From NCBI GenBank assembly GCA_014874255.1, contig JACWAN010000018.1:1-40289 (forward strand): 40,289 nt of DNA. The letters run 5' to 3'. The position numbers and the translations under genes were made by a program. Every line of letters starts with the position of its first letter. Position 1 is the first letter of the stretch. Shown here piece after piece: positions 22,491 to 26,368 of the stretch. A model generated the notes under the pieces. That model made no database searches. It saw only the letters and a list, made by a program, of their open reading frames with translations, and was not told the origin of the DNA. The stretch comes from Candidatus Woesearchaeota archaeon (GTDB lineage Archaea > Nanobdellota > Nanobdellia > Woesearchaeales > UBA525).

Positions 22491-22609
22491 GCGCCATCGC
22501 TGCCTTGGCACGATTGACGGCGGCGAAGATGGCGCCGCTGCGCCATAATCCTGAGCCGCCGTTCTTTTCCCGCACCGGAGGGAGGGCGACTAGGCCGCAG
22601 CGATGGCGC
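22491..22609 (+). ncRNA. Family A structured intergenic element, copy A3
   Basis: P1 GCGCCATCGCTGC (22491-22503)/GCAGCGATGGCGC (22597-22609); P2 ACGGCGGC/GCCGCCGT; P3 ATGGCGC/GCGCCAT; CACCGGAGGGAGGGCGAC. Confidence 0.8.
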
Positions 22610-22677
22610 GGAAGAGAAAAAGAACATCCGGACAGTCGAACGTCTGCTTTTTAAACCGTCTGCGGTTCTCAGAGGAG

Positions 22678-23856
22678 ATGACAGCGAAGAAGACAGCGAA
22701 AGGCGAGAAGGCGATTAAGGCCCCTGTGGCGGGCGCGCTCCGCCTCGCGCTCCTCTGCGACCAGGGCTGCGAGCCCGAGGCGGCGCTCGAGGCGAAGGAG
22801 CTGACCGGCCGCGCAGCCAGGAACGGCAAAGGCTATGTCGTCCTGGACGGCTGTACGCCGGACGACGTGGCGGCGCTCTGCTACCGCAGCCAGGCCGCCG
22901 CGCGCGTGCTGGCCTTCATCGCCGAAGGAAAGATTGCAGAGCCGGACGACCTCCTCCAAGCAGAAGAAACTATCCTCGGCTTCGACTATTCCCCCTATCT
23001 CAAGCACGGAGGAACGTTCAGGGCGACGTGCGAACGGCTCGGCGACCACAGCTTCCAGGCGCAGGAGATAGAACTGCTCCTCGGCGGCCTCCTCTACGAA
23101 GAGAAACACTATCCGGTCAACCTCGCCAAGCCGGACATGACGCTCTTCTGCGCGATCGATCACGACGCGTACGTCATCGGGATCGACCTGGCCGGCAGGG
23201 ACCTCGCGAAACGCGAATACCGGGCATTCCACACCAGACGATCATTGCGCGCGAGCGTCGCGTACGCCGCCGTCCGCGCCGCCGGCTACACCGGGAAAGA
23301 AACCCTGCTCGACCCGTTCATGGCCGAGGGCTCCCTCGTCATCGAAGCGGCCGTTTTCGGCTCCGGGACGAGCCCGCAACGCTTCCGGAAAGAGTTCGCC
23401 TTCCTCGCCATGCCCTTCGCCGCCAGCAGGGAATGGACATTCCCGGACAGCCAGCCGAAGAAGACGAACGTCACGGGATTCGCGCCGATGGTCTCCATGC
23501 TGAAGATGACGCGCGCCAACGCGAAGCTCGCCGGCGTGATTGACAGCTTCTCGCTGACGAAGTGCGAGATTGAATGGCTCGACACCAAGCTCGAGAAAGG
23601 GAGCGTCGACCTCATCGTGACGGTGCCGCCGCAGTCCGGGAAGAGCACGCCGCCGAAGGACGTCGAGAAGCGGCAGGACGACCTCTTCCACCAGGCGAAA
23701 TACGCGCTCGGGAAGAAAGGGATGGTCCTTCTTGTCACGGAGAAGAAGGCCGAGCTCCTCAACCCGGCGGAACGCCACGGCTTCTCCTTGCTGGAAGAGC
23801 GCGAGGCCTGGATGGGCGAGAAGAAACTCCTGTTCCTGGCGTTCGGGAAGAAGTAG
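22678..23856 (+). CDS. THUMP-domain RNA methyltransferase (Trm14/RlmL-like)
   Basis: LLDPFMAEGSLVIEAA (SAM/N6-N2 MTase motif), preceded by THUMP-like region; start set after the family A element. Confidence 0.8.
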   Translation: MTAKKTAKGEKAIKAPVAGALRLALLCDQGCEPEAALEAKELTGRAARNGKGYVVLDGCTPDDVAALCYRSQAAARVLAFIAEGKIAEPDDLLQAEETILGFDYSPYLKHGGTFRATCERLGDHSFQAQEIELLLGGLLYEEKHYPVNLAKPDMTLFCAIDHDAYVIGIDLAGRDLAKREYRAFHTRRSLRASVAYAAVRAAGYTGKETLLDPFMAEGSLVIEAAVFGSGTSPQRFRKEFAFLAMPFAASREWTFPDSQPKKTNVTGFAPMVSMLKMTRANAKLAGVIDSFSLTKCEIEWLDTKLEKGSVDLIVTVPPQSGKSTPPKDVEKRQDDLFHQAKYALGKKGMVLLVTEKKAELLNPAERHGFSLLEEREAWMGEKKLLFLAFGKK

Positions 23857-24931
23857 GGGACTGGAGCAGTTCTATTTGCATCTCTGTCTCGATGCCGAGT
23901 TTCCGTCGCAATTGGTAGGTGTTCGCGTGTCGTGCGTAGGCGCTCCAGCCCTCGAGCGTTTCACGAATACGTTCCGGTTCGCTTACGCTGCGTTTGCAGG
24001 ATGCGATAAGCCGCGTCACCCTCGTCTTGATGCTCCTGATGTTCCGTTTTCTCGGTAGTTTGTGGCGATAGAAGACGCGGTAACCGAGGAGCGGGACTCC
24101 TCTTCGGAGTGGGATGATGGCGCTCTTCTCCGGATGGAGAGCGAGGAGCAGCTCCTCTTCGAGGAATGCGGCGATCTTCTTCTTGTACTCTGCAAGGACT
24201 GCCGGCGAGACGTGCATGATGATGAAATCATCGACATAACGCACATAATATCTTGCTTTGAGCGTGTGCTTGATGTACTGGTCCAGTTCGTCGAGGTAGA
24301 TGTTCGCAAAGAACTGGCTCGTCCAGTTCCCGAGCGGCATGCCTTTTCCCGGCGTGCCCGAGTCGTAGTTTTCCAGGATAGTCCTTGCCAACCAGAGGAT
24401 ATCCTCGTCCGGAACCCGTTTTTTGATGATGCCGATGAGCGTTTCGTGGTCGACCGTATCGAAGTAATGTCGGATGTCTGCTTTCAATGCGTGGCCGATG
24501 ACATCGTTTCCGTTTCGCGCTATCGCTCTTGTCCGTCCGTTCTTCGTGACCCTTTGTTTGAAGTCGTCGAAGCGGCGCAGTGCGGGGAGCGTCCCCTTAC
24601 CTTTCCTGCTCGCATAACTATCATGGATAAATCTCGGCTCGTAGATCGGCTGGAGGATGTTGACGAGCGCGTGATGGACGACGCGGTCGCGGAACGCGCT
24701 GACGCTGATGATGCGCGTCTTTGGGTCGCGCAGGACGAATTTCTTGAGCGGCGCAGGTCGGTACGTCCGCTCGAGGAGCTCTTTCCTGAGATGGACGAGA
24801 TGGAGCCGCCAATGCTCGTCGAACTCCAGGACGCAGGATTTGCTCGCCTTGCCTTTTCGCGCTCGCCAATAGGCGCGTTCGAGATTCTCGAGCGAGAAGA
24901 GCTGTCTGCCGAGGTGGCGGTATGTTCTCAT
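23759..24931 (-). CDS. Diversity-generating retroelement reverse transcriptase
   Basis: KADIRHYFDTVDHETLI, GMPLGNWTSQFFANIYLDELDQYI (DGR-type xGxxxSQ motif), YYVRYVDDFIIMH; adjacent TR/VR. Start chosen at MRTYRHLGRQ. Confidence 0.92.
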   Translation of the reverse strand: MRTYRHLGRQLFSLENLERAYWRARKGKASKSCVLEFDEHWRLHLVHLRKELLERTYRPAPLKKFVLRDPKTRIISVSAFRDRVVHHALVNILQPIYEPRFIHDSYASRKGKGTLPALRRFDDFKQRVTKNGRTRAIARNGNDVIGHALKADIRHYFDTVDHETLIGIIKKRVPDEDILWLARTILENYDSGTPGKGMPLGNWTSQFFANIYLDELDQYIKHTLKARYYVRYVDDFIIMHVSPAVLAEYKKKIAAFLEEELLLALHPEKSAIIPLRRGVPLLGYRVFYRHKLPRKRNIRSIKTRVTRLIASCKRSVSEPERIRETLEGWSAYARHANTYQLRRKLGIETEMQIELLQSPTSSRTPGTGVSSRPSRPRALPARRSRGVPPG

Positions 24932-24957
24932 TGTGTCCCGTCGCGGGGGAGGCCATT

Positions 24958-25047
24958 CCACGGACGCGGCTGTTGTTGTTGGCTTGCTCGTTGGCGTTCA
25001 GGTTGTTGAGGTTGTTGTAGTTGTCGCCGCCGAGGCACGCAAGCCGG
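24958..25047 (-). repeat. DGR template repeat (TR)
   Basis: Minus-strand CCGGCTTGCGTGCCTCGGCGGCGACAACTACAACAACCTCAACAACCTGAACGCCAACGAGCAAGCCAACAACAACAGCCGCGTCCGTGG; every substitution against the VR is at a TR adenine. Confidence 0.95.
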
Positions 25048-25242
25048 CCGTTGTAGCCCCCTCACCTTTCATCCTTCACTGCCGTTCCACTGGTTCTGCC
25101 GCCTCGTCTCGACGCGGGTACTGGATGTCGCGGCTGCATTTCATGACAGGAATGTCCTGCCGTGATGAAGGGACGTGTGGCCCCTCGCCGCATCGCGGCA
25201 GGGACGAGATGAGAAAAAGATGTTGATATAAAATGTTTGCGA

Positions 25243-26016
25243 TTACCTTCGTTTCCTGTGGAGCGGCGCGGCCGCTTCGCGGCGCACCCCACGGACGCGG
25301 CTGACGTAGTCGTTGTCGGCCCGCTCGTAGGCGTACAGGACGTAGAGGCCGTAGTAGTCGTCGCCGCCGAGGCACGCAAGCCGGAGTTCCGCTTGGTCTT
25401 TTCCGAGGTGCTTTACATCGCCCGGCTTCAGATCATGGACGTAACCAGTCTCATAGCCCTTTTCCTTGTTCAGCCAGCCAGCGTACGCTTCGCTTGTCGT
25501 GGGAAGCATCGCCCGTACCGTCTTGTTGCTGCCGAACGCAGAGACGCCGTCGACGCTCTTCGTGCTCAGTTCGAGCGGCGACTCGGTGAACTCGACGACT
25601 CTTCCAGTCTTCTCGGCGCGGCGGAGCGCCGCCTTGACGAGCGCGTCGCTCGTCGGCAGGACGAACGGCCTGCCTGCCTTGTGCGCGTCGTACATCGCTT
25701 GCGCGTGGACGACGACGAGATTCTTGTCCGGCGTCCAGATGTCGTCGAACGCAGCATATTTCTGCCCGTCTGCCAGGAAGTGGATTGCGCCGGTCCGGCC
25801 GCGCTGATACGCGTTCGCGTGGTCCTCGCCGTCCGCCTCGATGCGGAACGCAGCCGCCTCGTCGAGGCTTTGCATGACGGTGCCGAGATTCTTGCAATAC
25901 TCCACCATCTTGGGCAGATTGAGATTTGATTCGGAGCTTTTCGTGAACGCGAGTCCGCGGAAACCAGGGTTCTCGATGCTGTATGGCGTGTTGACTTCGA
26001 TCTTCTGAAGCGTCAT
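25243..26016 (-). CDS. DGR target (variable) protein with C-terminal CLec-type variable region
   Basis: 257 aa; C-terminus RLACLGGDDYYGLYVLYAYERADNDYVSRVRGVRREAAAPLHRKRR contains the VR. Confidence 0.9.
   Translation of the reverse strand: MTLQKIEVNTPYSIENPGFRGLAFTKSSESNLNLPKMVEYCKNLGTVMQSLDEAAAFRIEADGEDHANAYQRGRTGAIHFLADGQKYAAFDDIWTPDKNLVVVHAQAMYDAHKAGRPFVLPTSDALVKAALRRAEKTGRVVEFTESPLELSTKSVDGVSAFGSNKTVRAMLPTTSEAYAGWLNKEKGYETGYVHDLKPGDVKHLGKDQAELRLACLGGDDYYGLYVLYAYERADNDYVSRVRGVRREAAAPLHRKRR
25271..25283 (-). other. GC-rich stem-loop just after the VR
   Basis: GCCGC-GAA-GCGGC on the minus strand, 5 nt from the VR 3' end. Confidence 0.55.
25289..25384 (-). repeat. DGR variable repeat (VR)
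   Basis: 96-nt match to the TR with 13 A-specific substitutions and a 6-nt length difference. Confidence 0.95.
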
Positions 26017-26107
26017 GATATCACCTTGTTCTATCGGTCAGTTAACAGGAACTCTTTTATAAATTTTTTTATTTTTACTACTTTTTAGAAAGAACAAATA
26101 TGCGTTC

Positions 26108-26368
26108 TTATCTGAACCCGATCACCGGGAAGCCGTATTCCTCGATCTCCTCTTTCGTGTGGAAGCGGTAGTTCTTCGTCAAGCTCACCCGGGTCACGTC
26201 CTTCTCGACGGTCCGGCCGGTGTACTCGTTCTTTTCGTGATCCCACTCCCGCAAGACGAGGACGTCGCCCGGCTCGCACGCGAAATCGGCGAGCCGCAGC
26301 TCGTACTTCTTCTCGCCGCTCAGGATCGCCGCGAACGAGCCGCGCCGGATCTTCTTCTCGATCCCCAT
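26108..26368 (-). CDS. DUF3850/ASCH-like domain protein
   Basis: KIRRGSFAAILSGEKKYELRLADFACEPGDVLVLREWDHEKNEYTGR. Confidence 0.75.
   Translation of the reverse strand: MGIEKKIRRGSFAAILSGEKKYELRLADFACEPGDVLVLREWDHEKNEYTGRTVEKDVTRVSLTKNYRFHTKEEIEEYGFPVIGFR

Follow-up and report, generated by a model that had tools for sequence, protein, structure and literature searches.

The window analyzed here is a stretch of 40,289 nucleotides from Candidatus Woesearchaeota archaeon (GCA_014874255.1, contig JACWAN010000018.1, positions 1-40,289), a DPANN woesearchaeal archaeon whose genome assembly comprised 1.29 Mb in 122 contigs and was 81.5% complete. The window contained a diversity-generating retroelement (DGR) cassette, all parts of which lay on the minus strand: the gene for a 257-aa target (variable) protein (25243-26016) with a variable repeat (VR, 25289-25384) near its 3′ end, a spacer, a template repeat (TR, 24958-25047) and a gene for a DGR-type reverse transcriptase (RT, 23759-24931). 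This order of target, spacer, TR and RT had been given in a preliminary description of the same DNA and was borne out, although a structured RNA of the RT-16 family (25048-25216) in the spacer had been missed.

A blind repeat search recovered a direct repeat at 24972-25047 and 25309-25384. Over these 76 ungapped nucleotides TR and VR differed at 13 positions, every one of them a TR adenine (8 A>G and 5 A>T); 12 of the 25 TR adenines and all 51 non-A bases were unchanged, and the hypergeometric probability that all 13 changes would hit the 25 adenines was 3.4e-8. The substitutions of the earlier alignment were therefore confirmed over 76 nt, and its count of 26 adenines over 90 nt agrees with ours, as it includes the sequence beyond a 6-nt gap. 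That gap, which makes the VR 6 nt longer than the TR, had been left undiscussed. Past it the similarity of TR and VR resumes (CAGCCGCGTCCGTGG), and the length change itself is seen as AACAACAAC-AGC in TR versus GACAACGACTACGTC-AGC in VR. The codons are AAC AAC AAC AGC in TR and GAC AAC GAC TAC GTC AGC in VR, i.e., three AAC codons in TR and five AAC-derived codons in VR, and the extra VR codons are themselves mutated copies of AAC. The two-codon excess fits slippage in the AAC run while it was copied, or a later loss of two AAC codons from TR. Slippage in AAC repeats by multiples of three has been posited for DGRs (PMC12875486), and AAC-run indels of this kind were also found in about 15 other loci. 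Read in the VR frame, the TR specified 15 variable codons, corresponding to ~10^15 protein variants. One VR was found in the host genome assembly at its completeness of 81.5%.

For comparison, ~150 related RT loci (L numbers below; genomes have G numbers), mainly from DPANN archaea, were assembled and their TR/VR pairs located by a seeded scan around the RTs. In 114 TR/VR pairs of related RTs, 1642 of 3149 aligned TR adenines and 30 of 7260 other bases were changed, a ratio that describes a selected set and is no independent test, because the pairs were picked for few non-A changes (≤2 each). In four loci (L010, L015, L006, and L084), the VR had deletions between AAC-rich repeats of the TR, some of which were not multiples of three, so that the target frame would shift; these look as if the RT had jumped.

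Immediately 3′ of both window repeats there was an additional AA/GG difference, with TGGAAT on the TR side (24954-24959) and TGGGGT on the VR side (25285-25290). Because it was found repeatedly in many archaeal loci, this difference was attributed to a pair of initiation of mutagenic homing sites (IMH* at TR and IMH at VR) and not to random mutagenesis. Just 3′ of the VR and within the target open reading frame (ORF) was a hairpin, GCCGC-GAA-GCGGC (25271-25283), part of which formed when the DNA was folded. The same TGGGGT/TGGAAT pair, and GRA trinucleotide loops inside the target gene, have been described for nanoarchaeal DGRs (Paul et al., 2015, PMC4372165). The structured RNA at 25048-25216 is a member of Rfam RF03019 (RT-16; 61.1 bits, gathering 50, E 6.7e-9), here placed exactly, abutting the 5′ end of a DGR template repeat. 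It was at or almost at the 5′ end of the TR in 15 of 15 other archaeal cellular loci tested, and no RT-16 RNA was detected in the archaeal virus ANMV-1. Between TR and RT start the spacing was 26 nt, with a median of ~28 nt in 88 related loci.

The RT ORF opens at a GTG (24961), and the likely start is the ATG at 24931 because homologues begin at MRTYRH. The motifs LGNWTSQ and YVDD were present as previously reported, with SQ where group II RTs have SP. The protein belonged to Pfam family RVT_1 and matched PHROG 1423 (E 2e-119). Its best match in the PDB was 8ub7 (E 7.6e-44), which we take to be the BPP-1 DGR RT (bRT), with group II RTs at ~8e-25. In a tree of 60 rows that included BPP-1, ANMV-1, other DGR RTs and group II RTs, a 100/100 branch separated all DGR RTs from group II, and the window RT fell on the DGR side, within a 15-row archaeal clade (100/100) and beside a congeneric RT (98/86). 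The long branches of BPP-1, FP_Brigit, and Ideonella were unsurely placed, which did not affect the placement of the window RT. A congeneric genome and Candidatus Woesearchaeota archaeon UBA153 carried identical RTs (L006 and L017). Related RTs were present in 3 of 6 genomes of the host's genus and in 94 of 359 genomes of its order; in viral contigs, the related RTs came from DGRs of the bacterial type (33-35%).

The target belongs to an orphan family found across the order, with homologues in 19 of 359 genomes (the window's included) at 25-43% identity, several per genome in some. Its members end in VRPVGLGG-variable-RARGV, and in an alignment of 17 sequences the family consensus around the VR read VRPVGLGG-variable-GRARGV. 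There was no match for the target in Pfam, NCBIfam, PHROG, PADLOC, or PDB, and no credible hit came from searching PDB and Pfam with profiles; archaeal DGR targets are typically without recognizable domains (Roux, 2021, PMC8144416). An AlphaFold2 model from three sequences reached a predicted local distance difference test score (pLDDT) of 34. In hhalign, the target matched AvpA-like targets weakly (E 0.008, probability 5%) with the VRs aligned. AvpA is an archaeal variable protein of the C-type lectin (CLec) type (PMC5006420), and its motifs GxxVVVYAH and HPxxxPFxG were absent from the window target, so that a relationship is weakly suggested and an AvpA-like CLec module in the target is plausible and unproven. 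The CLec fold assigned to this protein in the preliminary description is therefore not demonstrated, nor is a surface location supported: the weak AvpA-like profile match was all that pointed to the fold, and neither a signal peptide nor a membrane segment was evident on reading the sequence, no predictor having been run. Target paralogues occurred in two genomes (L188, L204, L209, and L211 in G040; L189, L205, L208, and L212 in G357, three of the latter close together), and they are possibly further targets of one DGR.

The RT phylogeny, the adenine signature, the IMH/IMH* pair, the GAA hairpin and the conserved gene order uphold the original identification of an archaeal DGR, and the cassette is almost certainly an intact chromosomal one, of a kind known since 2015, in a woesearchaeal (DPANN) host. 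The layout conserved across archaeal DGRs was present in full in the window, from TR, VR, IMH/IMH* and hairpin to RT-16 leader RNA and DGR-type RT. The repeat could instead have arisen by chance or by gene duplication beside the RT of a group II intron or a CRISPR-associated RT, and the window RT does also match group II, Drt and RT-Cas1 profiles. However, the 100/100 split between DGR and group II RTs, SQ in place of the SP motif, the adenine-only substitutions (p 3.4e-8) and the same layout in ~95 relatives leave this explanation next to no probability, and we regard it as refuted by the RT tree and the substitution test.

Several observations do weigh against an intact element. Only one VR was found, and no second allele of it. 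The last ~40 codons of the RT (23759-23870) could not be aligned to homologues and overlapped the 3′ end of a convergent Trm14-like gene (22603-23856), and some erosion is possible because the RT tail reads on into this neighbor. The GCCGC-GAA-GCGGC hairpin was no more stable than shuffled sequences (z -0.9). No Avd-like gene, and no other notable ORF, was found between target and TR, a genome-wide Avd search not having been made; Avd is not universal in DGRs. Together with the unequal lengths of TR and VR, the lone VR and the RT reading frame that runs into the next gene would suit an older cassette that is no longer active and whose VR bears only the marks of past homing. We consider such inactivity unlikely, since the RT, TR, IMH pair, hairpin and RT-16 RNA were all intact, the VR had accumulated no non-A change, and length changes in the AAC run were common in intact relatives.

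By analogy with characterized DGRs, a transcript containing the RT-16 RNA and the TR would be bound by the RT, which would copy the TR into complementary DNA (cDNA) with errors at adenines, and this cDNA would replace the VR, anchoring at the IMH and the hairpin, with the IMH/IMH* pair putatively setting the direction. Slippage on AAC during copying may account for the two extra VR codons. Homing would thereby diversify the variable C-terminal loop of the target, with ~10^15 possible proteins, and the diversified loop would probably serve ligand binding on the putative AvpA-like CLec module.

Nanoarchaeal DUSEL4 DGRs (PMC4372165) resemble the window cassette in the TGGGGT/TGGAAT pair, the GRA-loop hairpin inside the target gene, the orphan target and the DPANN host, but they have another target family and four or more cassettes per genome, compared to one found here. 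The BPP-1 DGR (AY029185) shares the order of target-VR followed by TR and RT, adenine mutagenesis and an RT with the SQ motif. Its structured RNA (Rfam Phage_DGR, 1373-1505 of L214), however, is 3′ of the TR, within the 144 nt that precede brt, whereas the window has RT-16 RNA 5′ of the TR and only 26 nt from TR to RT; an avd gene precedes the TR in BPP-1, while no avd was identified in the window. Archaeal DGRs thus seem to carry a structured RNA on the opposite side of the template from BPP-1. That they are primed from a retron-like arrangement is speculation.

The most surprising results were obtained from relatives of the window cassette, in their TRs and their RT genes. Twelve insertions of 18-45 nt, absent from every VR, were found in the TRs of ten loci: L019 (two VRs), L028, L030, L087 (VR on another contig), L088, L025, L167, L168, L170 (two insertions), and L171 (two insertions). 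The window TR has none. All junctions compatible with adenine-only change were listed for each insertion, with one non-A change allowed in L168. In 12 of 12 insertions, exactly one junction had a 4-bp helix (4/4 pairs) with a 3-nt bulge on each side, plus an inner helix 2-10 bp long, and the exons were joined after the second base of both bulges. Cleavage of bulge-helix-bulge (BHB) elements takes place after base 2 of the bulge. A 4-bp helix with two 3-nt bulges is the archaeal BHB splice site (PMC4090602), and relaxed BHB forms and a micrarchaeal enzyme are also known (PMC12397907). When the insertions in the first five of these loci were compared with shuffled sequences, the individual p-values were 0.0008-0.012. 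The helices varied among loci with pairing kept (CTCG/CGAG, CTCG/CGGG, CAGG/CCTG, CTTC/GAGG, and GACG/CGTC). At least four different insertion sites were used, and the insertions are not all independent because related loci with an insertion at one site may have inherited it in common. A related TR without the insertion (L169/L182) read CAGGAACGACAAC, the joined sequence, at this position. Several insertions were not multiples of three, and copying them would therefore break the target. The splicing endonuclease EndA (PF01974), of a family that matched only archaea among the control genomes, and RtcB (PF01139) were both present in the genome of the window and in 5 of 5 intron-bearing genomes tested (L019, L025, L028, L030, and L088). 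From the BHB fit we infer that in these relatives the tRNA-splicing machinery probably acts on the TR RNA, splicing it ahead of reverse transcription.

RTs can skip hairpins, and the insertions might accordingly be hairpins passed over by the RT, or sequences that entered the TR after the last homing. In support of such a reading, template jumps from repeat to repeat were seen in L006, L010, L015, and L084, and free folding gave the BHB helices in ~7 of 11 insertions tested, leaving 4 of 11 without a BHB at minimum energy in isolation. Yet all 12 junctions had archaeal splicing geometry and were not symmetric at the base of a hairpin, whereas the repeat-mediated deletions, used as controls, had a BHB in 0 of 4 cases. 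The two VRs of L019 shared the exact junction, and adenines at most junctions were mutated in the VR, from which it follows that the cDNA read through joined exons. A non-intron origin is thus improbable, and splicing of the template RNA is preferred. The TR insertions corresponding to the VR deletions of L010, L015, L006, and L084 were themselves considered as introns and rejected, as they lack BHB geometry and resemble jumps between AAC-rich repeats. A 62-nt insertion in L103 (G178), absent from two VRs, was hairpin-rich but not BHB, and for the long hairpin-rich TR insertion of L070 (G252) no VR was found on its contig. No prior description of TR introns was found in the literature; such introns, or RT-16 in the role of a DGR RNA, may have been noted earlier by Paul (2017) or Weinberg (2017).

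Within the RT genes of 144 loci, 24 simple-sequence tracts were detected, a density of 0.169 per kb versus 0.039 per kb outside these genes. The tracts were (CT)n, (GA)n or poly-G of 8-27. In most cases the RT gene was broken into two frames by the tract; the frame was continuous across the tract in L128, L142, L019, and L087. RT genes with poly-G or dinucleotide tracts included L038, L039, L040, L041, L043, L044, L048, L050, L128, L142, L148, and L151-L158; that of the window had no such tract. Of the 24 tracts, 20 began in one of two hot spots, residues 139-151 and 189-196; with these ranges chosen post hoc, a uniform null gave p 2.6e-18. A tract length assembled wrongly could give a false picture of the state of one gene, but not of the existence of the tracts. 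The hot spots and the frame shifts suggest phase-variable DGR RTs, in which slippage would switch the mutator on and off. No prior description of on/off repeat tracts in DGR RT genes was found in the literature.

It is very probable that this archaeal DGR family uses template RNA processed by the host, and that some of its members switch the mutator on and off by repeat tracts. A BHB intron in the TR of many relatives would be removed by the tRNA-splicing endonuclease and RtcB prior to reverse transcription, such that the DNA template and the target are never collinear, and poly-G or dinucleotide tracts would switch the mutator in other relatives. Neither feature is present in the window cassette, which has the RT family and the RT-16 leader 5′ of the TR in common with these relatives.

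The cassette was surrounded by ordinary chromosomal genes, encoding a Trm14-like methyltransferase, a ThyA-like protein, an ASCH/DUF3850 protein, an Lrp-like regulator and a ClC channel. The Trm14-like and ThyA-like genes of the sister species G004 were 84 and 90.5% identical to those of the window, respectively, with no DGR between them; the 687 nt separating these flanks contained a different ORF of ~200 aa (L226/L230). The cassette was therefore gained or lost since the two species split, so that it comes and goes between sister species as if carried horizontally, and the region between the Trm14-like and ThyA-like genes is a swap site. The G004 site also had a promoter-like stretch similar to window positions 26056-26083. 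The gene for the small ASCH/DUF3850 protein (26108-26368) lies directly upstream of the target gene, and nothing matched it at the equivalent position in G004.

The window contributes a clean woesearchaeal DGR on the chromosome, whose target belongs to a new orphan family. A sister species lacks the cassette at the same site, which allows the consequences of carrying a DGR to be compared. A structured RNA 5′ of the TR, with almost no spacer on the 3′ side, raises the question of how archaeal DGR cDNA is primed. If the natural TR introns are true, sequence alone would show that archaeal homing passes through RNA, and the introns would tie the mutator to the tRNA-splicing machinery. The RT tracts, if true, would provide a simple heritable switch on the mutator.

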